IMG/VR virus record: IMGVR_UViG_3300023179_000190
Span: 1 to 43,794 of that record
DNA length: 43,794 bases
From: a virus
Reading direction: 5' to 3' (one strand)
Part shown: positions 1,698 to 39,221 of the stretch, piece after piece
How the letters are laid out: each line of letters opens with the position of its first letter
Numbering within the stretch: position 1 is the first letter of the stretch
The notes under the pieces: model-generated
The model's input: the letters and a program-made list of their open reading frames with translations, nothing else
Databases searched by the model: none
Told to the model about the DNA's origin: nothing
Position numbers and translations under genes: made by a program

Positions 1698-1718
1698 CCG
1701 TTATAATTTTTATAGCGG
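1698..1718. repeat. AT-rich hairpin, near copy of 747-765
   Basis: CCGTTATAA and TTATAGCGG pair (one G-T) around TTT. The 16-mer TATAATTTTTATAGCG (1702-1717) is identical to 750-765, and its core AATTTTTATAGC also occurs at 770-781. It is followed by a GC-rich patch (GGGGCCCCC) unusual for this AT-rich DNA. Confidence 0.5.
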
Positions 1719-1783
1719 TGGGGCCCCCTAACACGCGCTACTTTCAAAAAAATTTCAAACCCCTAAGGTGCCAAATCTCGAAC

Positions 1784-1812
1784 TTGAAAATATTTAGCCT
1801 ATCTGCTATAAT
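1784..1812 (+). promoter_or_regulatory. Sigma70 promoter opening the late operon
   Basis: TTGAAA (1784-1789), 17 nt, then TATAAT (1807-1812) preceded by TG at the extended -10 position. The start site would be near 1819, about 6 nt before the AGGAG Shine-Dalgarno (1825-1829) of the first gene. About 25 bp upstream of the -35 box lies a direct repeat of TTTCAA with 11-bp period (1741-1758), only loosely like a Pho box. Confidence 0.75.
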
Positions 1813-1837
1813 CAAACTAATTATAGGAGTACCTACA

Positions 1838-2608
1838 ATGGACTACAAAACCATAGCAATCTCCGATGTTCATCTAGGCAGTCATGGCTGCAAAGCAAAA
1901 CTACTAGTTAATTTCCTAAAAAATAATAAGTGTGATATACTCTATCTTATAGGAGATATAGTAGACGCCTGGAAAATAGAACAAAATAAGTGGTACTGGC
2001 ACCAGTCACATACAGACGTAGTTCGTGAAATACTTAAAAAAGCTAAACGTGGCACAGAAGTTGTGTGGATAGCTGGTAATCATGATGAGTTTTTACGTCC
2101 ACTAATTCCCTACAATATAACATTTGGTTCAATTAAAATAGCTAATCAGTGGGTACATAGTGGAATTGATGGTAATCGCTATCTATTAGTACACGGCGAT
2201 TTATTTGATGGTATTACTAGAATTGCTCCATGGATAAGCTTTTTAGGTGATAAAGCTTATGATATACTACTAGCAGTTAATACTAAATATAACTGGTGGC
2301 GTCATAGGTTAGGATTTGGTTACTGGAGCCTTAGCAAGTACCTAAAACATAAAGTCAAACGAGCTATAGACTTTATGTTTCAGTTTGAATTAAACTTAGC
2401 CAACTACTGTATTCGCAAAAATTTTGATGGTGTTATTTGTGGTCATATACACAGATCAGAAATTAAGTGGTTAAATGGTGTTTGGTATATGAATAGTGGT
2501 GACTGGGTTGAGTCATGCACAGCACTTGTAGAACACCACAGCGGTCGCTGGGAAATAGTAGAGTGGCACGAATTAAAACATGAAGAAAATACTAGTAATA
2601 ACGGATAA
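1838..2608 (+). CDS. plcP: Metallophosphoesterase, PlcP/LpxH-like; probable lipid-remodelling phospholipase C
   Basis: The 256-residue protein carries a full calcineurin-type two-metal site: D10-x-H12, G39-D40, G80-N-H-D83, H119-G-D121 and G202-H-x-H205. The segments SDVHLGSHGCKA, YLIGDIVDAW, YWSLSKYLKHKVK and GDWVESCTALVEH are those of the alphaproteobacterial family often annotated UDP-2,3-diacylglucosamine diphosphatase, which includes PlcP. PlcP is a cytoplasmic phospholipase C that releases diacylglycerol from phospholipids under phosphorus limitation. I chose the ATG at 1838, 9 nt after AGGAG and just downstream of the promoter, rather than an upstream in-frame start with no ribosome site. 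The gene overlaps the glycosyltransferase by 29 bp. PlcP activity is inferred mainly from this partner; LpxH-like or other phosphodiesterase activity is the alternative. There is no signal peptide. Confidence 0.8.
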   Translation: MDYKTIAISDVHLGSHGCKAKLLVNFLKNNKCDILYLIGDIVDAWKIEQNKWYWHQSHTDVVREILKKAKRGTEVVWIAGNHDEFLRPLIPYNITFGSIKIANQWVHSGIDGNRYLLVHGDLFDGITRIAPWISFLGDKAYDILLAVNTKYNWWRHRLGFGYWSLSKYLKHKVKRAIDFMFQFELNLANYCIRKNFDGVICGHIHRSEIKWLNGVWYMNSGDWVESCTALVEHHSGRWEIVEWHELKHEENTSNNG

Positions 2609-3572
2609 CTTACCAGACCAAATAAATGGAGTAGTTACTACCTATAAAAATTTAGCTAATACAGCACTAGAAAATGGTTACAAACTAGTTTTTATAGACC
2701 CTACAAACTTTTTACATATAAATTGTCCTGGTTATAGTGAGATTAAACTTGCACTGCCCTTCAACATAAACAAACTAATTGCTAGCACAGATGCTAATTA
2801 CTATCACATAGCCACAGAAGGGCCGCTAGGACTAGCAGCACGCCAATACTTTACAAAACATAATATTAGGTATAATACTAGCTACCATACTAGATTTCCT
2901 GAAGCACTAAAAACCTTTTTAAATATACCTGAACAATTAACTTGGCGTTATATTCGCTGGTTTCATAAACATACTGGCAGATGTTTAACTACTACACAAA
3001 CTATTGCTAGTGAACTAAAGTCTCAGGGAATTAACAATGTTGTATGTTGGACGCGTGGAGTAGATACTAAACTATTTAATCCACAACCTAGACTTGCAAA
3101 ACCTTATAAAACACTGCTATGTGTTAGCCGTGTTAGCCGTGAAAAAAACTTAGAAGATTTTTGCAGTCTACAAGTACCTAACACTCGTAAAGTACTTGTA
3201 GGATCAGGGCCACATCTTAGCTACTTACAGCAACACTATAGTGATGTTGAATTTGTAGGCATGAAAACTGGTAGTGAGTTGGCTAGCTACTATCAACAGG
3301 CTGATGTATTTGTGTTTCCATCACGCTGGGATACATTTGGCATAGTTATGTTGGAGGCACTAGCTTGTGGAGTACCTATAGCAGCTTATCCTTGCAATGG
3401 TCCACTAGATGTTGTTGAGGTTGGTATAAATGGTTACTTAGACCAAGATTTAAATCTAGCAGTTGAAGGTTGTTTTAGTTTAAATAAAGCAAATATATAC
3501 TTATCTAGTCGTCGTTGGACCTGGCAAAATTGCTGGGATATTTTTCACCAAAACTTAGTGGAGCCAACATGA
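2580..3572 (+). CDS. agt: GT4-type glycosyltransferase, Agt-like; probable diacylglycerol glycosyltransferase
   Basis: This 330-residue GT-B enzyme has DNLPDQINGVVTTYKN at the N-terminus, HIATEGPLGLAARQY and TSYHTRFPEAL mid-way, then RGVDTKLFNP, LLCVSRVSREKNLEDF, LVGSGP and DVFVFPSRWDTFGIVMLEAL. The acidic residue pair DTFGIVMLE takes the place of the usual E-x7-E. These blocks match the alphaproteobacterial family whose member Agt transfers sugar from a nucleotide sugar to diacylglycerol. Its start lies inside the 3' end of the phosphoesterase gene, and its stop overlaps the small terminase start (ATGA), so translation is coupled on both sides. With PlcP it would turn phospholipids into glycolipids. 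Glycosylation of virion proteins or DNA is an alternative. Confidence 0.78.
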   Translation: MKKILVITDNLPDQINGVVTTYKNLANTALENGYKLVFIDPTNFLHINCPGYSEIKLALPFNINKLIASTDANYYHIATEGPLGLAARQYFTKHNIRYNTSYHTRFPEALKTFLNIPEQLTWRYIRWFHKHTGRCLTTTQTIASELKSQGINNVVCWTRGVDTKLFNPQPRLAKPYKTLLCVSRVSREKNLEDFCSLQVPNTRKVLVGSGPHLSYLQQHYSDVEFVGMKTGSELASYYQQADVFVFPSRWDTFGIVMLEALACGVPIAAYPCNGPLDVVEVGINGYLDQDLNLAVEGCFSLNKANIYLSSRRWTWQNCWDIFHQNLVEPT

Positions 3573-5884: not shown

Positions 5885-7046
5885 TTGGATTCGTGAAAAA
5901 TTAAATCCAGCTCAACCACTAATACATCATGACGAAGGCACACATATAGGTAGCGAAAGTAGAATCGTTACTTATAGAAATGCATTTCGTAACATAGACA
6001 GTGTAAATCGTAGCGTTAATATGGTTATTAGCGCAGCTAGTTCACTAGACTATGATATAAAAGATAAAATAAATGAAGGAGTAGTAGTTGGTGTTCGTCA
6101 AAAAACGCTAGCAAACTTACTTAACTTTAGACCAAATCCTTATCAAACAGCACAAGATTTTAGGCGAGAACTATTTAAAGACCTACTACTAGAAGGCAAT
6201 GCATTTATACACTTTGATGGCGTATTTATGTATCACCTACCAGCAGAAAATGTAGAAATATTAAGTGATGCAAAAACTTTTATACGTGGATATAGATATA
6301 ACGGTAATGTATTATTTGAAGAACGCGAAGTTTTTTACTTTAAGGACATAAATAGTGCCAGTATTTATAGAGGTGCTAGTAGACTAGAAGGCTGTATAGA
6401 AAATATAGGTATACTTTACAGCATGCAAGAATTTCAGCAAAAGTTTTTTGATAATGGTACTATATTTGGACTAGTACTTACTAGCGATAATACACTATCA
6501 CAAGCTGCCAAAGAAAAAACACTACAATACTGGCAACAAAGATATAATACTAAGTCGGGCGGAAAGCGTCCAATTATTTTGGACAGCGGACTAAAGCCTA
6601 TGCGCCTAAGTGAGCAAAGTTTTAGTGATCTAGACTTTGATCGCGCAATAAAAACACATGGTGAGCGTATTATGACAACTGTAGGTGTTCCACCTATACT
6701 ACTACAAGGAGGTAATAATGCTAACATTGCCCCTAATTTACGCTTATTTTATCTGGAAACAGTACTGCCTATTGTTAGGCTATATATTTCCGCTGTCGAA
6801 AGATATTTTGGATACGACGTGGAAGCAGTAACTAGTAATGTTAGTGCATTACAGCCTGATATTGGTGAATTAGCAAAATATCATAGCACACTAGTTAATG
6901 GTGGTATTATAACACCAAATGAAGCTAGAATAGAATTAAGGTATCCTAAATTAGACGGTGGGGATACTATTAGAATACCTGCTAATATAGCAGGTTCAGC
7001 AGCCAACCCATCTCTTGGTGGTAGGCCTAGTGATACGAAGGAGTAA
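5862..7046 (+). CDS. Portal protein, HK97 family
   Basis: The 394-residue protein has the hallmarks of phage portals: NIDSVNRSVNMVISAASSLDYDI near the N-terminus (split here as NIDSVNRSVNMVI and SAASSLDYDI), LLNFRPNPYQTAQDFRREL, LLEGNAFIHFDG, and VGVPPILLQGG followed by a helical stretch ending in a flexible Gly/Pro-rich tail. Twelve copies form the ring at one capsid vertex that docks the terminase and later the tail. An AGGAGA Shine-Dalgarno lies 6 nt before the ATG, inside the HNH gene. The stop is immediately followed by the start of the protease-capsid gene. Confidence 0.92.
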   Translation: MALEKIRSWIREKLNPAQPLIHHDEGTHIGSESRIVTYRNAFRNIDSVNRSVNMVISAASSLDYDIKDKINEGVVVGVRQKTLANLLNFRPNPYQTAQDFRRELFKDLLLEGNAFIHFDGVFMYHLPAENVEILSDAKTFIRGYRYNGNVLFEEREVFYFKDINSASIYRGASRLEGCIENIGILYSMQEFQQKFFDNGTIFGLVLTSDNTLSQAAKEKTLQYWQQRYNTKSGGKRPIILDSGLKPMRLSEQSFSDLDFDRAIKTHGERIMTTVGVPPILLQGGNNANIAPNLRLFYLETVLPIVRLYISAVERYFGYDVEAVTSNVSALQPDIGELAKYHSTLVNGGIITPNEARIELRYPKLDGGDTIRIPANIAGSAANPSLGGRPSDTKE

Positions 7047-7047
7047 T

Positions 7048-9078
7048 ATGAAAACAAAACTGGAAAAATTACTCTATTTAAGCAGTAAGTTTACAGCTAG
7101 TACAGATACTGAAGATAGCATTTATATTGAAGGATATGCTAGCACAGTAGACCGTGATCGTCAAGGTGATGTAATTCCTATGTCTGCATGGACTGAAGGA
7201 TTAAAAAATTATCTTAAAAATCCGATTATACTAGCCTATCACAATCATCAGATGCCAATTGGCAGAATGATCGATCATAAAGTTACTGATCAGGGTTTGT
7301 GGATTCGAGCACAGATTCCTAGTGAAGTAGGTGATGTATACAAACTGGTTAAAAAGGGTATATTAAGTGCATTTAGCGTAGGTTTTAGAGTACGTGATGC
7401 AGATTATGATCACGCTAGTGAGTCATTTTTGATCAAGGATCTAGAACTACATGAAATTAGTGTAGTTTCAATTCCTGCCAATCAAAATACACTATTTAGT
7501 TTAGCCAAGGCATTTGACACTGCCGAAGATTTTGAGTCATTTAAACAGCAATTTGCTCCAAAGGAATCAGCTAAAAAGCTAGATACCCAAAAATCAGCAA
7601 AAAGCACTATAAAAGAGGAATGGGACATGGATCCAAAAGAATTAGAGAAATTACTAGCAGATGCTGCTGCTAAAGCTGCTGAGCAAACTGCTAAAGCCGT
7701 AGTAGAGGCACAAACAAAAGCTGCTGAAGAAGCACAACGTAAATTAGCCGAAGAGCATGCACTAGAAGCTAAAATTAAAGCTGCTGTTAATGCAGTATCA
7801 CCAGCTGTACAAACAGTAGATACTGGTGCTGAGCGTCTCTTAGCAGATGTTGAAAAGCGCTTAGAAGATCAGGCCAACGAGCACAAGAGTGCTATTGAAA
7901 ACCTACAGAGTGCTATTCGTGAAAAAGCCAAAGAGCTCGAGCAGCTACAAAATAAGAGTGGTGAGCTAGAAGCACTACAAAAAAGCCGTATGCACTTTAC
8001 TGATGCAAAAGAAGGTGATGTTAGCTATAGTGACAAAGAAAAAGCTGTTTTACTAAGTAAAGTTCTACGCAAGCCAATTCAAGAAACCAAATTTGGTAAA
8101 ATGGTATTAGAAAAAGCAGCTAGTTTTGGTGGACGTGATCGCTTTACTAGTACTAATGGTGAAGCTTGGGAAATTGAAGTTAGCACAGCTATTCAAGGTG
8201 AAATGCGTCGTCAACTAGTAGTAGTTGGCACAGTTAATAGCATTGCTATGAATCAAACAGTTATGCGTATTCCTGTAAACCCAGATACTGGCACAAATGC
8301 TACTTGGGTAGCTGGCAGCAGTTTCGGGTCGGACTATACTAGCGTTGCTGGTACAGGTGCTAGTAGCGGTACAACTAGAACACATACTATCAAAGAAGTT
8401 ACACTAACTGCACAAAAATTAGCTACAAAAGAGTATGTATCTTTTGAAGAAGATGAAGATACAATTATTCCCTTACTACCACTAATTCGTGATGCTATGG
8501 CACGTCGTATGGCCAAAACACTTGATAAAGCTATGCTATTAGGTGATGGTGGTACAACTGCTACAGGTCAAGTAGCTGCTGCTATTAAGGGTCTAGCAAG
8601 TTATGATCCCGTTGCTGGTAGTGGCGTTACACTAGATATTAGTGCTGCTGATAAATTCACTGTTGCTAAGGCAATGGCTGCTCGTAAAGCACTAGGTGCT
8701 TGGGGCTTAAATCCTAGTGAACTAATTATGTTTGTTAGTACACAATCTTACTATGAGTTAATGGAAGATAGCAACTTTTTAACAGTTGACAAAGCTGGTC
8801 CTGCTGCTACACTACTAACTGGTCAAGTAGGTAGCATAGGTAATACACCAGTGCTTGTTAGCGCAAGTTTTGATGCTGCTGGAGTAGACGGAAATGCTGC
8901 TGCTGTAGTAGTCAATCCCATGAACTTTTTAGTAGGTACACATCGTGGTATGCGCGTTGATAGTGACGACGAAGTCGTAAATCAGCGTAGTGTACTAGTA
9001 GCTAGTATGCGTATTGGTATGACACAACTATCAACAGTTGATGGTCAAGGTGTTGTAGCAGTTCGTTACGTACCCTAA
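7048..9078 (+). CDS. Prohead protease-major capsid protein fusion
   Basis: The 676-residue polyprotein has an HK97-type (S78) prohead protease at about residues 20-155: IEGYASTVDRDRQGDVI, the His-containing LAYHNHQMPIG and the Ser-containing ILSAFSVGFR. A charged Ala/Glu/Lys coiled coil at about 190-310 resembles the scaffolding delta domain. From about 335 on it is an HK97-fold capsid protein (AIQGEMRRQLVVVGTVN, ALGAWGLNPSELIMFVS, GMRVDSDDEVVNQ). AAGGAG lies 7 nt before the ATG at 7048; an in-frame ATG at 7015 inside the portal gene is less likely. The protease would be expected to release itself and the scaffold domain during maturation. An internal start at 7627 may give capsid protein alone. 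Confidence 0.92.
   Translation: MKTKLEKLLYLSSKFTASTDTEDSIYIEGYASTVDRDRQGDVIPMSAWTEGLKNYLKNPIILAYHNHQMPIGRMIDHKVTDQGLWIRAQIPSEVGDVYKLVKKGILSAFSVGFRVRDADYDHASESFLIKDLELHEISVVSIPANQNTLFSLAKAFDTAEDFESFKQQFAPKESAKKLDTQKSAKSTIKEEWDMDPKELEKLLADAAAKAAEQTAKAVVEAQTKAAEEAQRKLAEEHALEAKIKAAVNAVSPAVQTVDTGAERLLADVEKRLEDQANEHKSAIENLQSAIREKAKELEQLQNKSGELEALQKSRMHFTDAKEGDVSYSDKEKAVLLSKVLRKPIQETKFGKMVLEKAASFGGRDRFTSTNGEAWEIEVSTAIQGEMRRQLVVVGTVNSIAMNQTVMRIPVNPDTGTNATWVAGSSFGSDYTSVAGTGASSGTTRTHTIKEVTLTAQKLATKEYVSFEEDEDTIIPLLPLIRDAMARRMAKTLDKAMLLGDGGTTATGQVAAAIKGLASYDPVAGSGVTLDISAADKFTVAKAMAARKALGAWGLNPSELIMFVSTQSYYELMEDSNFLTVDKAGPAATLLTGQVGSIGNTPVLVSASFDAAGVDGNAAAVVVNPMNFLVGTHRGMRVDSDDEVVNQRSVLVASMRIGMTQLSTVDGQGVVAVRYVP
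7614..7629 (+). promoter_or_regulatory. In-frame internal ribosome binding site and ATG for capsid protein alone
   Basis: AGAGGA (7614-7619) lies 7 nt before an in-frame ATG (7627-7629) at the junction between protease and scaffold domain. Initiation here would give a 483-residue scaffold-capsid protein (MDPKELEKLL...) without protease. That would solve the need for hundreds of capsid subunits but few proteases. The site is visible; its use is inferred. Confidence 0.6.
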
Positions 9079-9091
9079 TCTTTAAGGTTAA

Positions 9092-9149
9092 AAACAGGAC
9101 TCGCAAGAGTCCTGTTTCTAAAGACTATTAATATAGTTTTTAGAAACAG
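9092..9149 (+). terminator. Two mutually exclusive hairpins after the capsid gene
   Basis: Hairpin 1 is an 11-bp perfect stem, AAACAGGACTC with GAGTCCTGTTT (9092-9117), capped by a GCAA tetraloop. Hairpin 2 (9112-9149) is a 17-bp stem with one G-U pair and a TAAT loop, formed by CTGTTTCTAAAGACTAT and ATAGTTTTTAGAAACAG. They share 9112-9117, so only one can form in full. Hairpin 1 lacks a T-run. Hairpin 2 ends 1 nt before the AGGAGA of the next gene. Partial termination, RNase III processing or mRNA protection are candidate roles. Confidence 0.6.
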
Positions 9150-9162
9150 TAGGAGAAATTAA

Positions 9163-9735
9163 ATGGCCGTTAATCTAGTTACAAAAACAGAATGTAAAAA
9201 TTACTTAGGAATTACTACTAGTAACAGAGATACGGAAATAGACTTTCTTATTCCTAAGGTAAGTAAATTAGTACAAACATATTGTCGTAGAGGCTTAACA
9301 GAATATGCAAATGCTACTGTATATACACAGTATGATAATGGTGGATATGATAAGATTATACTAAAAGAAACCCCTGTTATAAATCTTATCAGTTTTGGAT
9401 ATAGTACTGACTATGGTGTAACATATACTAGTTTAACACAAAATACTGACTGGTTATTGGATGGAGACTTTATAATTCCTATTAACTATCAAGGTATATT
9501 TAAATATTATCTACGAGGATATAAAATAGAATATTTTGGTGGTTATGATGATTTACCAGACGACTTAAAATTAGCAGTTTTAGATTTAGTAGAGTACTAC
9601 ATGAAAAACAATAGTGCTGTGCATGTTAATAGAGATATAGGCCCTAATACTACACAAATACAATATATAGCTACAACAAACTTTCCGGCACATATTAAGC
9701 GTATACTAGATCAATATGTTGTGGATTATACATAA
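9163..9735 (+). CDS. Head-tail connector protein, gp6-like (adaptor)
   Basis: The 190-residue protein reads as an HK97 gp6/SPP1 gp15-type adaptor: an N-terminal helical part (TKTECKNYLGIT, EIDFLIPKVSKLVQTYCRR), a central beta part with TVYTQYDNGG and a C-terminal helix (LKLAVLDLVEYYMKNNS). Such rings sit between the portal and the tail. The position right after the capsid gene fits. AGGAGA lies 6 nt before the ATG. Its TAA overlaps the next ATG (TAATG). Confidence 0.75.
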   Translation: MAVNLVTKTECKNYLGITTSNRDTEIDFLIPKVSKLVQTYCRRGLTEYANATVYTQYDNGGYDKIILKETPVINLISFGYSTDYGVTYTSLTQNTDWLLDGDFIIPINYQGIFKYYLRGYKIEYFGGYDDLPDDLKLAVLDLVEYYMKNNSAVHVNRDIGPNTTQIQYIATTNFPAHIKRILDQYVVDYT

Positions 9736-14311: not shown

Positions 14312-17300
14312 ATGGCATCACAAGACGTATCAATTCGCTTAAAAATGGTTGCTGAAGGCGTAGATCAGCAAGTACAAAATAGTCAGACTATTGCTAATAA
14401 CTATGCTAGTGCGGCTCGTAGTGCACAACAAGTAGGCAGTGCGCCACAAGCTCGTCGTGCTGCTCAAGCTGGTGCTATGACTACTAGTGAAAATATTGAA
14501 TACGGTCGTGCACGTGGCAACATTGGTGGTACCGGTGCTAGTGCTCGTGACTTTGCTAACCAAGCTCAAGGTCTTGGGGGCTTAGTTCGTCTATATGCAA
14601 CAGTAGCTGCTAATGTATTTGCTGTTACTGCAGCTTTTAATGCGCTTAGTCAAGCAATGGATACCGCTAATATGGTTAAGGGCTTAGATACACTAGGTGC
14701 TGCCAGTGGTAGATCACTTGGAACATTAAGCAAACAATTAGTAAGTGTTACAGATGGTGCTATTAGTATGCGAGAAGCCATGAGTGCTACAGCTATGAGC
14801 AGTAGTGCAGGCTTAACTAATCAGCAAATACTTCGTATGGGTCAAGTGGCTAAAACAGCTAGCTTAGCCTTAGGTATTAGTATGCCAGATGCTATTAATA
14901 GATTAAGTCGTGGTATTACTAAACTAGAACCAGAACTATTAGACGAACTAGGAATATTTACTAAAATTGAGCCAGCTGTGCAAGCATATGCCTTGCAAAT
15001 GGGTAAAAGTGCCACACAGCTAACTGATTTTGAACGTCGTCAAGCCTTTGCTAATGCTGTGCTTAAAGAGGGTGAAGATAAATTTAATGCTCTTAGTGAT
15101 GCTGCAGCAAATCCATTTGATAAATTTTTATCACAACTTAAAAACGTTGTAACTTCAGTACTTGATCTTATAAATAGAGCACTAGGTCCTCTATTTAATC
15201 TACTATCAGAAAGCCCAACAGCTTTATTGGGAGGCCTAACATTATTAGTATCTAGCCTAGTTCGAAGAGCGTTGCCAGCAATAGGACAATTTAGAGAACA
15301 ATTAGCAGCTAGCAGAGATTTAGCTCAAGAAAAAGTAGCTCAAAAGCAGCAAGATACTGTTAAAGCAGGAGAAGCCCTAGGTAGACTAGCTTACAGCAAA
15401 GTAAAAGCTCAAATGGAAGCGGATGCTGATAGCGAACTAAGAGTATTTGAACAAAAGGAACAAAAACTAAATGAGTTAAAAAAACAGGGAGCATCGTATA
15501 GCAAAAGTTTAAATGAGCTATTAAAGAAAGATATTGTTGACATTACTCAACAAGAAATAAATGCTGCAAAAATAGTAGCTAAAGAAAGAGTAGAAGTAGC
15601 CAAGAAAGCATATAAAGAATTACAGTTTTTAGAAAAACAGGGTTATTCTGTTAAAGCTGAGGATATGGCTAAAGCTAAATCTGATAGAATGGCGGCTAGT
15701 GCAGAGTTAGTAACGGTAACAGCACTAGAAAAAACTGTTCAGGCAGAAGAAAATCTTATTAGAGTACAAAAACAAAAAGAACAACAAGAAATAAATAGAC
15801 TAAAACAAACTAAGCAATATCAAAGTTTAATAAAAGCAGAAGAGCAACTAGTTATACAAGCTAAGCGTTCAGAAATAGTTGCTAATATGGCATATAATAC
15901 CAGTCTTATAGGTATAGTAGATGCTTATAAGTTAATGAAGGCTGAAGCAGAAGCGGCAGGAAAGATTGGAGATTTAACTAGTCTTAAACTAAGGGCGATT
16001 GCTGCAGGTATTGGTACCGTTATTACTACTGCACTTGGTGCTATAGGCGTAGTAATACAAGTAGTAACAGCAGCTATTGCTGCATTTGGTTTATTAGATG
16101 GTATACTTAGTAGTAATGCAAAAGAAAGTAAAGCATTCAAAGAAGCTGTAGATCAAAGTGACTCTAGTGTTAAAAATGCAACTAGAACCTTAGAGCTATA
16201 CGAAACAAAAAATAAAGATAGTATACAAAGTACTGTAGCTTATGCAAATGCTTTTGGAGAGCTCTCAGATAGTTTAGAAAATGTTGTTAAAAAGTTTGAA
16301 AAAGCCGAAGCTAAAGCAGGAGATTATGATAAAGGTATAGAACGAATACTACAATTTGCAGATGTTCTAACTTTTGATATATTTAATTTTAGTAGCCAAA
16401 ATAGATTTGCAGATGCTGTAGCAAAAGACTTGGCGGCAACAATAGATGTTGCTGAAAAATTTGGAAAGTCTGGCGAATTACAAGCTAGGCTACAAGAGAT
16501 TTTAGGTATACAAGATATATTTAATACTGATAAAGTAAAAGAAGCAGTAAAAAGATTAGATGATATTGGTCGCAAAGAACTAGTAGGTGTTACTCAAAAC
16601 TTTAAAAAACAATTCCAAGAAATAGCAGGCTCATTAGATAGTTTTAGATCAAATCTAGACAAAAGCTATAAAGGGTTTCAAGAATTTATTAAAAGTTTAG
16701 CTTTAAATGATCCTTTTGAAAAATTAGCCCAAAACTTTATGTCTTTGGCTATTGATATGTCACGTCTATCATTTGCAAGCGCTGAGCAACAATTAAAAGC
16801 AATAGAAGAACTATTAAATAATCCTGAAAAAATGCTAGGTTTTGGACAAGAAATAGCTCAAGGATTTTTAGACATAAAAGAAAGTTTTAAATTAGACAAA
16901 GAAATTGCAGACTCTTATACAAATGTAATCAGTCAAATGACTAGAGACTTAGCAAAGCTAGAAGAAAGCTATGCTAAGTTAGAGGAGACACCACTTTTAG
17001 ATCCTAAAAGAATTGCCGCATATACGGCAGCTGGAACAGCAGCAGGTGCAGGTATTGGTGCAATAGCAGGTGGAGTCGGAGCAGTTCCAGGCGCACTAAT
17101 TGGAGCTGGAGCAGGACTGGGAGCTGGAGTTCTAGACAGTCTATTAAATAAATTTTTTAGTACTCAAAATAAACAACAAGCAGCAGCTAACATAGAACAA
17201 CAGAAAAATAATATAGATGCTTATAAACTAGCTCAGGCAGCTTTTAAAGCAAATTCAGAGACTTTTACTAAGGCAACTCAATTATTTGTTGCAGCTGCAC

Positions 17301-20300
17301 AAGAAAGTCTAAAGTTAGCTAGAGAATATACTGACAGAGCAGTTGAAAACTCCGCTATTAGAGCTGCTAATACGATAGCTAGTGCATATGCTACTAATTT
17401 AAGTGGTCCACAAGCAGTAGCAGAGCAAACACGAATTGCAAAAAGTGAGCAAGATATTAAAATTAGAGAAGCGCAACAAGCTCTAAAAATATTAAATTCA
17501 CAAAATACTCTAGAAGATGCTATACGTGCTAATACTGAACAATTAGCTATAAATACAGAGCGACTAAAAGGAACAACAGAAGGTACTGCTCAAGCCGATA
17601 GATTAGAAAGAACTAGAAGCTTAAGACAAGAAGCAGCAAGATTATTGAAAGAAAATAATGGCGATCCTGCTAAAGTTCAGCAGGCTATGGGAGTAACTTC
17701 TGCAACTGTAACAGATCAAGAAAAAATGGCGGCTATCACTGCTGCACAAGCAGACAGTGAAGAAAGAAAAAATAAGTTAAAAATGGCCCAAGCTAGAGTA
17801 AATGAAGAAGCTGCTAAAAGGGAGGCTATCAGTGAAAAAGGTAAGATAGACTTAGAAGCCGCTAGAATAGTTCAAGAAAAACAAATACAAGAAATAAAGA
17901 ATAGTACTAAGCAACTAAGTTTACAAGAACTAGATATTACTAAACAGATATTAGGGGTTACTTCTGAACAATCTATTTTAGATAAATTTAGTGAACAAGA
18001 CAGTATTAAAGAAAAAAGTAACAAATTAGAAATAGCTGATATAGACAGAAGAATAAAGCAAGAAAATACTACATTAACCAAAAAATTAAGTGCTGAACAA
18101 CGAGAAATACATAAGCAAGAATTAAAATTTTTAGAAACACAACTAAAACCAGCAATAGTCGCTAGACAAGAAGCAGAAAAAGAAGTAGAAGAACGTCGTA
18201 AACGCTTAGAGTTATTAACTAGAGAATTGGACGTAATAAGAAAGCAGTACGAGTTACAAAAGAGTATTCAGGATACTATTTATGCAGAAAATTCGGCCAA
18301 TCTAGAAATAGATAGGGCTCGTTTTACTTCGCGTGCTGAAATAGCAGATCTGGATAAGGACTATGTAGCACAAATAACTTATCAAATGGATTTGGAAAAA
18401 AGTAGATTAGATACTGAAAAGAGCAGACAAGATATTAATCAAAAATATAATCAGCAGTTAGAAGAGTTTAGTAAACGTGAAGCAGCTGCTGGTAAAGTAG
18501 GTGCAGATTTAGAAAAAGCTATTAGTGATGAAAAAGATCGCCAAGCCAAATTACAACAGAATGAACTATCTAGAGCAGATATTGAAAGTAAAAAACGAGA
18601 AGAATTATTAAGACTAAGTAAAGATCAAACTGTAGAGCTGGAAAAGCAGAGAAGAGCACGAGAAGCTTCGGATAGACAGGCCGAAATACGCCAAGCAGAG
18701 TCAGAGAATCTACTAGCAAAAACTAATTTTACCGAAGTTTATCAACAACAATTAAAGAATAGATTAGCACTAGCAGAAATAGACAGAAAAGACTCTTTAG
18801 AGCGAGATAGAAGGCTAGCCGGGTATAAAAAACAATTATTAGAAATAGCTGCTATTGAAGAGAGTGGAGACATATTATCACCAGAAACCTTACGAAGACG
18901 CGAAACTACACAAAGTGCTTTAGCTACAGCAACACAAGAGTTAGACGCTAAATTGGAAAAAGATCGTGAAGTACAAAGATTAGCAAATGACACAGCTTCA
19001 CAACAAGCAAGATTTAATGATGAAATGCAACGTAGCGTACTACTGGCCAACAGATTAAAAGATTCGTTTGGCGAAGTAGGCGATCGTATTGGTCAATTAG
19101 CCGTAGCATTTACGGAATATAGTCAAACACAAGAAAAAAATCAAGCAACACTAGCAAATATTGCCAAAGAAAGACTTCAAACAGAAGCTCAAATAAGAGA
19201 AGCAGAAAGTAGAGATGACTACGGCGAAGGATATGAAGCAGCAAAAAATAGACTAAAAGATTTATCTGCTGAAGAAGCAAAAGCTGGACAAAGAAGCTTA
19301 GCAACCGAAGAAAAATTAGTTGCTAGTGCTAAGAAGTCATTTAAAGAAAAAACAGCTGCCTATAAAGCATTTGGTGCACTAGAAAAAGCATATCACATAG
19401 CTAGACTAATAATGAGTGCTAAAGAAATAGCCACTCAAATTGCTAGTACTGTTAGTTTTATTACTCAAAGTATTACACGCCAAGGAGCCGCAGCAGCCGA
19501 AGCAGGAGTACTAGGTGTTAAAGCTGTAATTAATGCTATGAGTACACTACCTCCTCCATTTAGTTTTGCAGCAGGTGCTGCTATGACTGCACTAGTAGCA
19601 GGAATATTGAGTGGAATTGGTCAAAGTTTTCGTGGTGGTAGTGGAAGCTATTCTGGCCCAAGCACTGAAGATCAAGCTAAATATGCAAATACTGCTATGG
19701 GTTATAATGATCAAGGTAAACTTGTACAAGTACGTCGTGGAGTTGTAGGCGAACCTGAAAAACGTAGTGAAAGCGTTGCTAATAGCATTAGTATTTTAGA
19801 AAAAAATAGTTTGGATGGACTACTACTAAATAATAAAATGTTACAAGCACTACGTAGTATTGATAGAAATACTAAGATTAGTAGTGTAGCCTTATATGCT
19901 TCAACAGGTTTAAAAAGTGGAGAAATACCTGGTTTATCAAAAACAGGTAGTTTTGATGTCAATAATATAGGTACAGTTTTAGCTGATGTAGCTGGAACTA
20001 TTGCTGGTGGATTTATAGGCAGTTTAGCTGGTGCATTTACTGGTACACTATTTTTTGGTGAATTGGGTATGGCTTTAGGAGGCCCAGTAGGAGCTGTAAT
20101 AGGTGCAGTTTTAGGCAATGCAATTGGCGACTTAATTTATAATAAAGAAATAACTAATACTATTACGCAGTCAGGAATTAAATTAACTGGTAGCATATTA
20201 GAGCTTGCAAAAGAACCTGAAGAAGCTGTAAAAGCATATGTTACAGGCACAAAAACAACTAGAATTGGTGGACTTGCGGGAGCTGTTACAGAGCTATTTG

Positions 20301-23167
20301 GTGGAGATCGTACTAGTACAAGTGCACTTAATGAAACAGTAAAACTAATTGATACCAAACTGCCTGGAGTACAAACAATTATACAAAAAATTGGTACAGC
20401 TTTTAGTAGTAGTATAGATGTTTTTACAGAAATAGCACTAAAAACAGGAAAAACAGCTGAATTTGTTAACACAGAACTAGCAAAACCAATTCAAGCACTA
20501 GAAGTACCACTAAAAGATGTAAAAACTGGTGCAGAAGCAGCTGAACAATTAACAGGAGCTGTTAATGCCGCACTTGATGAGGTAGCACTAAGGTTATTTT
20601 CTAGCTTTACTGAATTTGAACAAAACGGAGAAACAATACTACAAACAGTAGTTCGTGTAGTATCAACCTATGATTTAGTTAATCAACAACTAGAAAATTT
20701 AACTGGCAAAATTTCTACTATACAAATAACTCGTGGAGCTCAAGAAACAGATCAAAGTTTTGAAAAACGATTGTTTGACGCATATAGACTATCAGAATCA
20801 CTAGTAGAAGCTTTTGGTGGTTTAGACAAATTTGTAGAAAAAACCGAATACTTTAGAAAAGCATTTTTAACTGAAAGTGAACAAATAGGTAACAGTGTAG
20901 GTGGATTACAAAGAAGATTAAAAGAATTAGGCATTGCTAATGTTGATACTATGGAAGAGTTTAAACAACTTGTACTTAGTATAAAACCAGTAACTCCAGA
21001 AGCAGCACAACTACAAAATAGTTTACTAGAGCTAGCTCCAGCGTTTGAAAAAGTTTATAAAGCAGCAGATGATCTACTAGAAAATCTTCGAAAAGAAACT
21101 ATTAACCTAACAACTACACTTAGTGCAGATGAAATTATATTACGTGATATAACTATAAAAACTAGTGAATATGTTGAAACACTAAAAGCAGCCGGTGTAG
21201 CTACTGAAAAAAATGTTAAAATAGTAGCAGACTGGTCTAAAGCTAGCGCACTAACACAACTACGTAATAATTTAAAAAGTGCATATGAAGAACGTAAGCG
21301 TGAATTAGAGAGTAATATTGCTGCACTTAAGAAATTTAAAGATACACTAGTAGATCTTAAAAATAGTTTGTTAATAGGAGAATTGTCAACATTAACACCG
21401 CTAGAACAGTATAACGAATTATTAAGCCAATATGAGACTAGTTTAATTAATTTACGCAGTACTGATAGTGCTGTAGCAGAATCAGCCCGTGCAAGTTTTC
21501 CACAATTAGCAAAACAATTACTAGAATCTGGTAAATCACTATATGCTTCTAGTGCTAACTATGTTACACTAAGCGAAAAAGTTAATAGTGATATACAAAG
21601 TGCTGGAGAGTTTATAGATAGTCAAATAACTACTGAAGAAGCAACACTAAAAATACTAAATGATACTTATACTAGTATAGTAGGTATAGAAACTGCTAGT
21701 AAAACTGCTGCAGAAAAGCTAACAGAACTTGCCACGCTATACAATCAAGTTGCTGCAACTGATACTACAAAGCTAGCTAAGGATATTGTTACTGCACTAA
21801 GTGGTGGTAAGAGTCCTGTAGAATCTGTAGCTGATGCATTAAATAAACAAATTCCTATTATTACTAAAGCAACAGCTGAGGCAGTAGTAACAGTTTTAGG
21901 TAATAAAACTGTTGATACAGTACTTAGTGACGCTGTTAGTAAAGTAATTGCAGATGCAGATGTTAAGGCTACAAAATTACAAGATGCAGGAACAGCTGCT
22001 GCTAGTGTAGTTAAAAAAGCTGGCGAAGATGCTGCTAGTGAAGTTAAAAGTGCCGGCACTGGTGTAATAGATAAAATTGATAGTGCATTTGCAAATAGTA
22101 GTGCTGGAGGCGGTGGAGGCGGTGGAGGCGGTGGAGGCGGTGGAGGCGGTGGAGGCGGTGGAGGCGGTGGAGGCGGGGCTACAGTAATAACTGCAGCTAC
22201 TAATGGTGGCAATATACTTAGTAGCACTACAACAGCAAAAGACTTAGGAGCTGCAGTTGATTCTACAGATAAAGCTATAGGTGATGCTGCTTTAGTTGCA
22301 GCACAACAAGCAAGTGACGCTGCACTAAATGCTAGTGCTGGTTTTGATTCAGCTGGTTTAAGCGCTACAAATTTTGCATCGTCGCTATCAAGTACTGCAG
22401 ATAAGGTTTCAGAAGCTTATGGTACACAATTAGCAGTATTTAATGGTACAAATGGTAATCCTCTACTTGTTAATACCGAACTAGCTACTGGCAGAAGTTA
22501 TGAAGGTAATACTGCACAACTTAGCGATGCCAGTATACTACAATCTGCCACAGATTTACTATCAACTATTGCTAATTCTAGTAGCGCTACTAATGCAGCA
22601 TTATTAACTGCTTATGCTATTCAAGATATAAATACATATAGAATGGATCAAATTATAGCGGCAATACCTGAAGTTTTTAGTACTGTAGATAGTGTAATAT
22701 CTACAGTAATAGATGTTGTATCTACAGCAGTAAGTACAGCAACTGATACGATAGGACAAATGGGTTCTAGTTTTATAGATCTTACAGTTTCTGGTAGTAG
22801 AAGTAGTGGTGATATTAGTCCGTGGCAAATGGGTGGTGATGCTTTAAAAGGTTTTGATCGTAACCTAAGCGGTATGGCTACAGGAGGCCCTGTAATAGGT
22901 AATAATCCATATATAGTAGGTGAAAATGGACCAGAATTATTTGTACCTAAAACTAATGGAACTATAATTAGTAATACTCAACTACAGCAATATCAAGAAT
23001 CTAATAATCAAAAATTATTAGCTAAGATTGATCAATTAATTCAAGCTGTGGCCGAAGGTGCTGTAATTAATGTGCAAGCTACTCGTAAAAATACAGAAGA
23101 AATTGCACAAGCTATTAATATTAATAATACCACCATTAGAACACAAAATAGAGTTGCTATTAAATAG
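14312..23167 (+). CDS. Tape measure protein (2951 aa)
   Basis: The protein threads the tail tube, sets its length and is ejected ahead of the DNA. I start it at the ATG at 14312, with GAGGA about 7 nt upstream, not at 14216. Features in order: an Ala/Gln-rich start; a hydrophobic segment near residues 563-595; Lys/Glu coiled coils over about 330-560 and 1000-1660; Gly/Ala-zipper stretches likely to insert in membranes near 906-945 and 1893-1945; a 24-residue polyglycine near 2599-2622; and the common tape-measure ending GPVIGNNPYIVGENGPELFV near 2855-2875. No lytic domain is recognised. At about 0.15 nm per residue the tail would be roughly 0.44 micrometres long, assuming the usual scaling. 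Confidence 0.93.
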   Translation: MASQDVSIRLKMVAEGVDQQVQNSQTIANNYASAARSAQQVGSAPQARRAAQAGAMTTSENIEYGRARGNIGGTGASARDFANQAQGLGGLVRLYATVAANVFAVTAAFNALSQAMDTANMVKGLDTLGAASGRSLGTLSKQLVSVTDGAISMREAMSATAMSSSAGLTNQQILRMGQVAKTASLALGISMPDAINRLSRGITKLEPELLDELGIFTKIEPAVQAYALQMGKSATQLTDFERRQAFANAVLKEGEDKFNALSDAAANPFDKFLSQLKNVVTSVLDLINRALGPLFNLLSESPTALLGGLTLLVSSLVRRALPAIGQFREQLAASRDLAQEKVAQKQQDTVKAGEALGRLAYSKVKAQMEADADSELRVFEQKEQKLNELKKQGASYSKSLNELLKKDIVDITQQEINAAKIVAKERVEVAKKAYKELQFLEKQGYSVKAEDMAKAKSDRMAASAELVTVTALEKTVQAEENLIRVQKQKEQQEINRLKQTKQYQSLIKAEEQLVIQAKRSEIVANMAYNTSLIGIVDAYKLMKAEAEAAGKIGDLTSLKLRAIAAGIGTVITTALGAIGVVIQVVTAAIAAFGLLDGILSSNAKESKAFKEAVDQSDSSVKNATRTLELYETKNKDSIQSTVAYANAFGELSDSLENVVKKFEKAEAKAGDYDKGIERILQFADVLTFDIFNFSSQNRFADAVAKDLAATIDVAEKFGKSGELQARLQEILGIQDIFNTDKVKEAVKRLDDIGRKELVGVTQNFKKQFQEIAGSLDSFRSNLDKSYKGFQEFIKSLALNDPFEKLAQNFMSLAIDMSRLSFASAEQQLKAIEELLNNPEKMLGFGQEIAQGFLDIKESFKLDKEIADSYTNVISQMTRDLAKLEESYAKLEETPLLDPKRIAAYTAAGTAAGAGIGAIAGGVGAVPGALIGAGAGLGAGVLDSLLNKFFSTQNKQQAAANIEQQKNNIDAYKLAQAAFKANSETFTKATQLFVAAAQESLKLAREYTDRAVENSAIRAANTIASAYATNLSGPQAVAEQTRIAKSEQDIKIREAQQALKILNSQNTLEDAIRANTEQLAINTERLKGTTEGTAQADRLERTRSLRQEAARLLKENNGDPAKVQQAMGVTSATVTDQEKMAAITAAQADSEERKNKLKMAQARVNEEAAKREAISEKGKIDLEAARIVQEKQIQEIKNSTKQLSLQELDITKQILGVTSEQSILDKFSEQDSIKEKSNKLEIADIDRRIKQENTTLTKKLSAEQREIHKQELKFLETQLKPAIVARQEAEKEVEERRKRLELLTRELDVIRKQYELQKSIQDTIYAENSANLEIDRARFTSRAEIADLDKDYVAQITYQMDLEKSRLDTEKSRQDINQKYNQQLEEFSKREAAAGKVGADLEKAISDEKDRQAKLQQNELSRADIESKKREELLRLSKDQTVELEKQRRAREASDRQAEIRQAESENLLAKTNFTEVYQQQLKNRLALAEIDRKDSLERDRRLAGYKKQLLEIAAIEESGDILSPETLRRRETTQSALATATQELDAKLEKDREVQRLANDTASQQARFNDEMQRSVLLANRLKDSFGEVGDRIGQLAVAFTEYSQTQEKNQATLANIAKERLQTEAQIREAESRDDYGEGYEAAKNRLKDLSAEEAKAGQRSLATEEKLVASAKKSFKEKTAAYKAFGALEKAYHIARLIMSAKEIATQIASTVSFITQSITRQGAAAAEAGVLGVKAVINAMSTLPPPFSFAAGAAMTALVAGILSGIGQSFRGGSGSYSGPSTEDQAKYANTAMGYNDQGKLVQVRRGVVGEPEKRSESVANSISILEKNSLDGLLLNNKMLQALRSIDRNTKISSVALYASTGLKSGEIPGLSKTGSFDVNNIGTVLADVAGTIAGGFIGSLAGAFTGTLFFGELGMALGGPVGAVIGAVLGNAIGDLIYNKEITNTITQSGIKLTGSILELAKEPEEAVKAYVTGTKTTRIGGLAGAVTELFGGDRTSTSALNETVKLIDTKLPGVQTIIQKIGTAFSSSIDVFTEIALKTGKTAEFVNTELAKPIQALEVPLKDVKTGAEAAEQLTGAVNAALDEVALRLFSSFTEFEQNGETILQTVVRVVSTYDLVNQQLENLTGKISTIQITRGAQETDQSFEKRLFDAYRLSESLVEAFGGLDKFVEKTEYFRKAFLTESEQIGNSVGGLQRRLKELGIANVDTMEEFKQLVLSIKPVTPEAAQLQNSLLELAPAFEKVYKAADDLLENLRKETINLTTTLSADEIILRDITIKTSEYVETLKAAGVATEKNVKIVADWSKASALTQLRNNLKSAYEERKRELESNIAALKKFKDTLVDLKNSLLIGELSTLTPLEQYNELLSQYETSLINLRSTDSAVAESARASFPQLAKQLLESGKSLYASSANYVTLSEKVNSDIQSAGEFIDSQITTEEATLKILNDTYTSIVGIETASKTAAEKLTELATLYNQVAATDTTKLAKDIVTALSGGKSPVESVADALNKQIPIITKATAEAVVTVLGNKTVDTVLSDAVSKVIADADVKATKLQDAGTAAASVVKKAGEDAASEVKSAGTGVIDKIDSAFANSSAGGGGGGGGGGGGGGGGGGGGGGGGATVITAATNGGNILSSTTTAKDLGAAVDSTDKAIGDAALVAAQQASDAALNASAGFDSAGLSATNFASSLSSTADKVSEAYGTQLAVFNGTNGNPLLVNTELATGRSYEGNTAQLSDASILQSATDLLSTIANSSSATNAALLTAYAIQDINTYRMDQIIAAIPEVFSTVDSVISTVIDVVSTAVSTATDTIGQMGSSFIDLTVSGSRSSGDISPWQMGGDALKGFDRNLSGMATGGPVIGNNPYIVGENGPELFVPKTNGTIISNTQLQQYQESNNQKLLAKIDQLIQAVAEGAVINVQATRKNTEEIAQAININNTTIRTQNRVAIK
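22106..22177 (+). repeat. 9-bp minisatellite coding 24 consecutive glycines
   Basis: Eight copies of GGA-GGC-GGT (last codon GGG) encode an unbroken 24-residue polyglycine inside the tape measure protein. It is the most GC-rich patch of the gene. Copy number is likely to vary by replication slippage in steps of three residues without frameshift. Confidence 0.95.
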
Positions 23168-36883: not shown

Positions 36884-39217
36884 ATGGCATCTTTGCTAAA
36901 GTTAAAAAAGAGTTCAGTTCGTGGCAAGATACCACTTGCCACGGATTTAGACTATGGAGAATTAGCACTTAATTATACTGATGGACTAATATTTTATAAA
37001 ACTTCTAATAATGATATAGAAAGTTTAGGTGCTCAAGGCTTACAGGGTATTCAAGGCATACAGGGTATTCAAGGCATACAGGGTATTCAAGGTCAACAGG
37101 GTATTCAAGGTATACAAGGTAGACAAGTTACTTGGCGAGGTGAATGGGCTCCTGGTGTTATATACAATACAGATGATGTTGTTTATTATGAAGGTAATAG
37201 TTTTGTTGCTGTATATATTAATGGTTCTTTTAATGGTAATGTTTCTGTACCACTACTTGGAGAAACTTATCCAAAAATTGTAAATGCAACTTTTTGGAAT
37301 AGAATGACTCAAGAAGGTATACAAGGTACTCAAGGTACTCAAGGTATACAAGGATTACAAGGAATTATAGGGGTTACAGGTGACATTGGTCCTACAGGTA
37401 TTCAAGGTACTCAAGGGATTCAGGGTTTGCAGGGTTTGCAGGGTTTGCAGGGTTTGCAGGGTACTCAAGGAATTCAGGGTATTAGTGTACAAGGATTTAC
37501 TGGTACACAAGGTGTACAGGGTGCACAAGGTGCACAAGGATTAGCTTTATCTATAAAAGGCAATTGGAATAGTGTAGATACTTATAGTGCAAATGATATA
37601 GTATATTATGAAGGTAGTAGTTGGGTTGCACTAATACCTAATCAGGGCAATTATCCCCCTAGTACAAGTCCTAGTCAGTGGAATTTACTTACGTCACAAG
37701 GTACACAAGGTACACAAGGTACACAAGGTACTAGTGGTACATTAATGGAAATTAGCTTAATAAATAATGCTAATGCTATTAGTAGTGTAGTAAATAATAT
37801 AACCGCATTACGATTTGATACAGATAGTGGATTTGATGTAACTGATTTAGGTAGTGGTGCTGTAAAAGTAGGAATGAATTCTACTTTTAAAACTTGGCAA
37901 GTAGATGGTGAAGATGATTTAATAGCACAAGGTTTGGATACAATTGAGTTTGTCGCTGGTACTGGTGTACAGATTACTACTAATCCAAATAGCACACCTA
38001 AGTCAATAATATTTGATGTAGATACTGAAAGTAGTGGTAATTTAGTTTGGACTACTTCTGGTAATTATAGAACCTTAACTGGATTTAAAGAATCAGGATC
38101 TACATTAACAATTAGATCTGCAGAATTTTTTAATAATCTTTTAAGATTAACTATAGCTACATTTACTCCTAATTTAAACTCTGTAGCTATACCAGGTAAT
38201 TCCTTAAATTGGGATATTCCAGCAACTGGATTTACTGTAACCGTAGATAATCCTACAGATTTTACTACTTCATTTATAAGTAGTGTGTTAAGCATAACAG
38301 CTACCACTGGATCTGCGGCTGCATTAAATAATTTTATTGCTGGAGCATACTCAAATACACCAGCAGGTGGTGTTGATTGGACAAAATCATTTACAAATGG
38401 TTGGATTAGATCGAATTCTACTACGATAGCTGGTGGTTCAGCAGTTAATACAATAGTATTTAATGTTACAACAAATGGAACAGAAAGTCAGTACAATACT
38501 TCGAATGTTACGCTTACTATAACATGGGCAACTCCTACTATGACAGTTTCTTTAGCTTCCTTAACTGGACAGAACTTTTTAAGTGAATATTCTAGTGTAT
38601 CATATACTGTATCTGTAACCGGTGTGACTAATCCTGCTAACTATTCACATGCTATAACAGCTTCTGGCGGAACAGTAAATAATCTAACAGAATCTGGAAT
38701 ATTTACTTTTGTTACTCCACTACATAAAAATAATACAGGTATTACAAGAACAGTAAGTAATACTACAACATTTACACGTCCTGTAGGTGTAACAGGCTCT
38801 AGCTATACGGCACAACTAACAACTACTACACCTAATCCAACAGTTACTTTTACTTATCCTAGTTTTTGGATATTTACTTCTTCAACTGGTATAGCCCCAG
38901 TTAGATCGGATATTGTTAATGGCTTTGGATTTAAAAGCACTGTAACAATTTTAGGTAATCAAGTAAAAATATTTAGTGGCAGTGTTAACAATTCACAAGG
39001 TAATCCTAGAGCTTTTTGGTTTGGAGTACGTACATCGGTTAATCAACCTACTACATTTAAAACAGGAGCTTCGGCTTCTTTATTAAGTACAGTTTCATAT
39101 ACAACTAGTAGTGTTTTACTAGAACCCGATAATCCCGGGGCTGGATATAGTGCAGAAAGTTATACTCTTTATGGTATTACATTACAGCCAGGCATAACTT
39201 ATGTAGATATAGGATAA
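36884..39217 (+). CDS. Collagen-like tail fibre with carbohydrate-binding-type modules (777 aa)
   Basis: The N-terminus (ASLLKLKKSSVRGK, DYGELALNYTDGLIFYK) resembles that of the preceding fibre and is probably the anchor. Three collagen-like blocks of G-I-Q, G-T-Q and G-L-Q triplets (about residues 48-82, 143-220 and 268-285) alternate with two related modules. These are WRGEWAPGVIYNTDDVVYYE and KGNWNSVDTYSANDIVYYEG, each with aromatic W...Y...D-x-V-x-Y-x-G-x-x-x-x-A spacing as in CBM5/12-type chitin-binding modules. The C-terminal 480 residues are beta-rich with two apparent Ig-like domains. AGGA lies 7 nt upstream. Confidence 0.75.
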   Translation: MASLLKLKKSSVRGKIPLATDLDYGELALNYTDGLIFYKTSNNDIESLGAQGLQGIQGIQGIQGIQGIQGQQGIQGIQGRQVTWRGEWAPGVIYNTDDVVYYEGNSFVAVYINGSFNGNVSVPLLGETYPKIVNATFWNRMTQEGIQGTQGTQGIQGLQGIIGVTGDIGPTGIQGTQGIQGLQGLQGLQGLQGTQGIQGISVQGFTGTQGVQGAQGAQGLALSIKGNWNSVDTYSANDIVYYEGSSWVALIPNQGNYPPSTSPSQWNLLTSQGTQGTQGTQGTSGTLMEISLINNANAISSVVNNITALRFDTDSGFDVTDLGSGAVKVGMNSTFKTWQVDGEDDLIAQGLDTIEFVAGTGVQITTNPNSTPKSIIFDVDTESSGNLVWTTSGNYRTLTGFKESGSTLTIRSAEFFNNLLRLTIATFTPNLNSVAIPGNSLNWDIPATGFTVTVDNPTDFTTSFISSVLSITATTGSAAALNNFIAGAYSNTPAGGVDWTKSFTNGWIRSNSTTIAGGSAVNTIVFNVTTNGTESQYNTSNVTLTITWATPTMTVSLASLTGQNFLSEYSSVSYTVSVTGVTNPANYSHAITASGGTVNNLTESGIFTFVTPLHKNNTGITRTVSNTTTFTRPVGVTGSSYTAQLTTTTPNPTVTFTYPSFWIFTSSTGIAPVRSDIVNGFGFKSTVTILGNQVKIFSGSVNNSQGNPRAFWFGVRTSVNQPTTFKTGASASLLSTVSYTTSSVLLEPDNPGAGYSAESYTLYGITLQPGITYVDIG

Positions 39218-39221
39218 AATA

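Follow-up and report, generated by a model that had tools for sequence, protein, structure and literature searches.

In phage lambda (C/Nu3), as in Mu (I/Z), an in-frame internal start within the protease gene gives rise to a second, protease-free product. Herpesviruses (UL26/UL26.5) and retroviruses (Gag-Pol/Gag) make a minority protein that carries the protease and an abundant one that does not, the two having an assembly domain in common; UL26.5 is made from its own transcript, and Gag-Pol arises by frameshift or readthrough. The Gifsy-2 prophage is said to possess a "tripartite capsid gene" in which a protease, a central scaffold-like domain and the capsid protein are encoded together. Fusion of protease to capsid is itself already known, and in thaumarchaeal proviruses an S78 or chymotrypsin-like protease is fused to an HK97-like major capsid protein (MCP), in an archaeal and unrelated context; the passage describing that fusion makes no mention of a nested start (PMC6563490). 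The prohead of phage T5 contains 775 pb8 subunits, and its protease, pb11, removes the delta domain (PMC5292684). Protease and capsid are two separate ORFs in all nine of the cultured T5-like phages that we examined.

The DNA analyzed here (the window) is a virus record of 43,794 bases, a piece when set against whole T5-type genomes of about 110-120 kb with terminal repeats, and its head module resembles that of T5. This module includes small and large terminase genes, an HNH-like ORF, and genes for a portal protein, a fused protease-capsid protein, head completion, a T5 p143-like protein and the major tail protein, and thus has neighbors similar to those in T5 (TerL, portal, head completion, p143-like and major tail). 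As in the T5-type (Demerecviridae) head module, an S78 protease is found beside a delta-domain MCP, homologous to pb11 and to the delta-bearing, HK97-fold pb8, respectively. The T5-like phages have two ORFs parted by a stop codon, whereas the window has a single ORF in which the capsid start is nested, at a position homologous to that of the T5 capsid start. The locus also differs from lambda, where the nested product is scaffold only and the capsid gene is separate; here, the predicted nested product comprises scaffold and MCP, with the capsid domain included. Gifsy-2 reportedly differs in having a ClpP-like protease, the domain in the window being Peptidase_S78. The likeness to Gag-Pol/Gag is functional, and no homology is claimed for Gag.

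The fused prohead protease-delta/scaffold-MCP gene occupies positions 7048-9078 on the + strand and encodes 676 aa, an assignment based on its single ORF together with Pfam, PHROG (80/617/10) and fold matches. The ORF begins with the ATG at 7048 and its stop codon ends at 9078; an in-frame TTG upstream, at 7015, was not preferred as the start. The ribosome site of the full-length product, AAGGAG (7038-7043, + strand), was read from the sequence and pairs with the anti-Shine-Dalgarno (anti-SD) sequence at -8.3 kcal/mol. Peptidase_S78 (PF04586; E 1.9e-18; 67.6 bits vs a gathering cut-off of 21) covers aa 18-151 (7099-7500, + strand), and the HK97-fold capsid domain, aa 377-657 (8176-9018, + strand), was recognized by PF05065 (Phage_capsid; E 1.8e-12) and by Foldseek, whose best PDB matches were the DT57C and T5 capsids. 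The single ORF and its two domains bear out the protease-capsid fusion claimed in a first-pass annotation of this DNA. An AlphaFold2 model of the fused protein was built from 30 relatives (mean pLDDT 71, pTM 0.48). Its protease part is beta-rich, with pLDDT mostly 70-85, and is followed by a disordered linker at aa 164-195 (7537-7632, + strand; pLDDT <50), which varies in sequence among relatives, and by a delta (scaffold) domain with long helices at aa 196-248 and 261-313 (7633-7986, + strand). PF05065, the T5 capsid fold and these modeled helices together describe an HK97/T5-fold MCP with a helical N-terminal delta domain. Model confidence for the whole fold is moderate, but the model clearly separates linker from helix at 195/196, where M194 is located.

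The first-pass annotation had also noted AGAGGA 7 nt ahead of an in-frame ATG at the domain junction, and both details match the sequence exactly. The AGAGGA internal Shine-Dalgarno (SD) site (7614-7619, + strand), recognized by sequence, by comparison with relatives and by anti-SD pairing, is followed by the 7-nt spacer ATGGGAC and then by the ATG of codon 194 (7627-7629, + strand), which lies between the disordered linker and the first delta helix. The predicted delta-capsid product would begin MDPKELEK and comprise 483 aa. When 19 internal in-frame ATGs were tested, this one showed the strongest anti-SD pairing (-6.0 kcal/mol, the next being -4.6), with a value close to the -5.6 kcal/mol of the major tail protein gene. 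Other internal ATGs seldom carry an SD in related fused genes (21 of 431, or 4.9%). Since the site has the strongest anti-SD pairing in the ORF, few other ATGs have an SD and relatives retain it, we conclude that it is more than chance.

Scans of IMG/VR provided 204 distinct full-length fused coding sequences with a tree length of 19.3 substitutions/site; a junction peptide was among the patterns of the first of these scans only, the rest relying on protease peptides. All 204 sequences have ATG at codon 194. Taken alone, this invariance could reflect peptide constraint, as only one codon encodes Met; the window lacks a good SD at three other columns with invariant Met. An SD core is present at -16 to -5 in 204/204. 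Codon 190 (E/K/R) is AAG in 123 sequences, GAG in 72, AGG in seven and GAA in two, and has undergone approximately 15 parsimony changes in its first two bases, which change the amino acid, vs one in its third base. Codon 191 likewise had one third-base change, compared to a mean of 15.4 over 42 comparable A/G-ending columns; the comparison for both codons was also run as a 156-sequence version. In both GAA relatives the SD has moved one codon upstream (AAGGAAGAA), and several lineages have one additional codon (ATC) between SD and ATG. The codons after the start are variable (MDPK, MTPE, MDSK, MNPE). One relative (L217:3050-3145), excluded from the 204-sequence set, has TTG as its internal start and a nonsense codon shortly thereafter, and may be a sequencing error or a decayed copy. 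A sliding synonymous-rate scan of the closest 33 sequences found the junction window to be low, along with several other windows, so that it was the larger sets that were decisive. The SD and start are conserved as nucleotides while the nearby peptide varies, and they lie where the stand-alone capsid ORF of T5-like phages begins; both observations support the earlier proposal that the site would give scaffold-capsid alone from the same mRNA. The comparative case for predicted internal initiation is strong.

More divergent genes were collected with a protease-anchored scan, which recovered 50 fused and 30 split loci as classed by ORF length; a few of the "split" loci are incomplete or frameshifted contigs (e.g. 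L351, L352 and L370). Dereplication left 34 fused genes with identity to the window down to about 35%. A fixed rule was applied, in which an SD tetramer had to lie 4-12 nt before an in-frame ATG or GTG situated 10-75 aa after a VPxNQ motif. An SD and start were found at the junction in 34/34 genes vs 17.6 +/- 2.5 (max 26) in 500 synonymous shuffles, which preserve amino acids and so form a conservative control if the SD itself shapes the residues. Among deep relatives, the linkers (29-66 aa long up to the start) are unrelated in sequence, leaving the SD and start as the only shared part. The SD is spelled in several codon registers and residues (aAG GAa, GAG GAa, AGG AAa, aaA GGA Gac), with a GGA-to-start spacing of 7, 9 or 10 nt only and a start codon in 43/43 representatives (ATG in 41, GTG in two). 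This fixed relation to a start codon argues against the SD-like stretch being a translational pause or frameshift signal, an idea that draws on the ability of internal SD-like sequences to slow ribosomes and on the location of the site at a domain junction. By eye, no slippery heptamer is present near the site in the window, and the downstream codons vary; we regard a pause or frameshift role as highly improbable.

An initial scan of genome contigs found no fused gene. GTDB genome contigs were then used as a hold-out set and scanned with two protease-only patterns, which yielded ten full-length or near full-length fused genes. All ten passed the same rule vs 4.7 in shuffles, although L406 and L407 look near-identical, leaving nine independent genes. 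Their motifs are of the textbook type (e.g. AAAGGAGAT...ATG). The contigs come from MAGs assigned to several phyla and are most likely misbinned phage DNA.

These counts bear on a reading in which only a polyprotein is made, such that all capsid begins as protease-delta-capsid, the protease is removed within the prohead by a cut in the linker and the SD-like sequence is unused. Such a scheme would leave unexplained both the third-base stasis of the SD codons despite amino acid changes and the presence of SD and ATG in 34/34 and 10/10 genes with unrelated linkers, and it would place hundreds of protease domains in each shell. In its favor, other phages have protease-capsid fusions, and one of these, an unrelated S78-capsid fusion in an Atlantibacter prophage (L430:3793-5626), lacks a good junction SD, with only a weak AAAGAGA before the junction Met. 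The linker also contains what looks like a cleavage site, a conserved Ser-Ala-Lys at aa 174-176 (7567-7575, + strand), which does not vary among 14 diverse clade members although the rest of the linker does. This candidate protease release site lies 18 residues before the internal start and resembles the T5 pb8 Lys|Ala site; it may represent a second cut that frees the protease. We consider a polyprotein-only scheme quite unlikely.

A delta-capsid product could alternatively come from its own transcript, as for herpesvirus UL26.5, with a promoter in the protease part and 7614-7629 as a mere leader. The same SD and start would serve in that case. Promoter-like sites in 6900-9300 occur at chance level (7 vs 6.4 expected), and the nearest one on the + strand ends >250 nt upstream of the internal start. 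Deep relatives moreover share only the SD and start, their linkers being unrelated. A separate transcript is therefore unlikely.

We propose instead that the locus very probably contains a nested in-frame gene, in which one mRNA would yield both protease-delta-capsid and delta-capsid; it has an internal in-frame start with a ribosome site, and both are conserved as nucleotides. Every intact copy examined keeps the second ribosome start, so the virus probably has a means of producing additional shell protein free of the protease. The fused gene alone would supply one protease per capsid subunit. Initiation at 7048 would produce the full protease-delta-capsid protein, and initiation at 7627 via the SD at 7614-7619 would produce a T5-pb8-like delta-capsid precursor, presumably in excess in vivo. 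As the delta and capsid domains are common to both products, a minority of prohead subunits could be full-length protein that co-assembles with the shorter form and carries its own protease inside. The protease would then cut the linker and the delta domain, the latter at a predicted maturation site, K356|A357 (8113-8118, + strand). This site corresponds by homology to the point at which mature T5 pb8 chains start; the mature chain in 5TJT begins AVNQSS..., at the Ala after the Lys that aligns with K356|A357. The arrangement may thereby act as the "stoichiometry switch" that the first-pass annotation envisaged.

The strength of the internal SD is ordinary. In 33 genes tested, mean SD pairing was -7.7 kcal/mol at the ORF start vs -6.1 kcal/mol at the internal site, which was the weaker in most of them, and the predicted unpaired fraction was 0.64 at the internal site vs 0.47 at the ORF start. 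We considered SD strength as a predictor of capsid excess and found it unsupported; with the stronger SD, on average, at the ORF start, these values give no sign of a large excess of capsid.

The fused and split arrangements were compared on a tree of 49 proteins, in which one change separates fused from split. When distant outgroups were included, the free tree placed the split group inside the fused group; a single fused clade was not rejected by the AU test (p 0.645), with the Moraxella and Shigella phage outgroups on very long branches. Judging from positions in a profile alignment, the DT57C capsid N-terminus falls within approximately 2 residues of the M194 position. In some split relatives, such as phiR2-01, the two ORFs share a frame and an SD immediately precedes the capsid start, as would be expected if two genes had recently been fused by loss of a stop codon and the internal site were left over from that event. 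We reject this origin as scarcely credible, given that the site is conserved across hundreds of fused genes, down to about 30% identity, and that the tree holds a single fused/split change. The nested start does raise the question of whether T5, with its protease and capsid genes apart, shows the ancestral or a derived state. Tentatively, a large and mostly uncultured T5-like lineage might build heads in the style of Gag/Gag-Pol, the protease being a covalent, minority N-terminal extension of capsid subunits and its dose depending on how two ribosome sites of a single mRNA compete, and the two-gene layout of cultured T5 might be a derived split; we see this broader picture as possible, and less likely than its opposite.

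Within the literature searched, which omits most subscription papers, no account turned up of fused S78-capsid genes having a conserved nested capsid start, or of a large T5-like lineage in which the fusion is the rule. The locus illustrates a way for a fused protease-capsid gene still to provide shell protein in excess, and bears on the means by which phages may set the dose of the maturation protease and bring it into the prohead. It also calls for a correction to automatic annotation, as the capsid ORF is missing in many T5-like metagenomic genomes, and offers a simple case in which to test internal initiation where selection on the nucleotides is conserved.

Several other features of the window were observed. 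Just after the capsid stop is an 11-bp GCAA-tetraloop hairpin (9092-9117, + strand; -22.1 kcal/mol for 62 nt), and a strong fold occurs in the 60 nt past the capsid stop in 186/186 relatives checked (mean -23 kcal/mol). The hairpin is likely a terminator, or perhaps an mRNA 3'-end stabilizer for an abundant message. The tape measure protein (14312-23167) is approximately 2950 aa long and has a long poly-Gly run; as the T5 tape measure is approximately 1220 aa, an unusually long tail is predicted. Two adjacent tail-fiber-like genes at 36884-43409 contain long collagen-like GxQGxQG repeats, with a Pfam Collagen match in the first. Just upstream of the terminase genes, 1718-3572 encodes a calcineurin-like phosphoesterase (LpxH-like by eye) and a family 4 glycosyltransferase, possibly involved in lipid A or surface-glycan modification.
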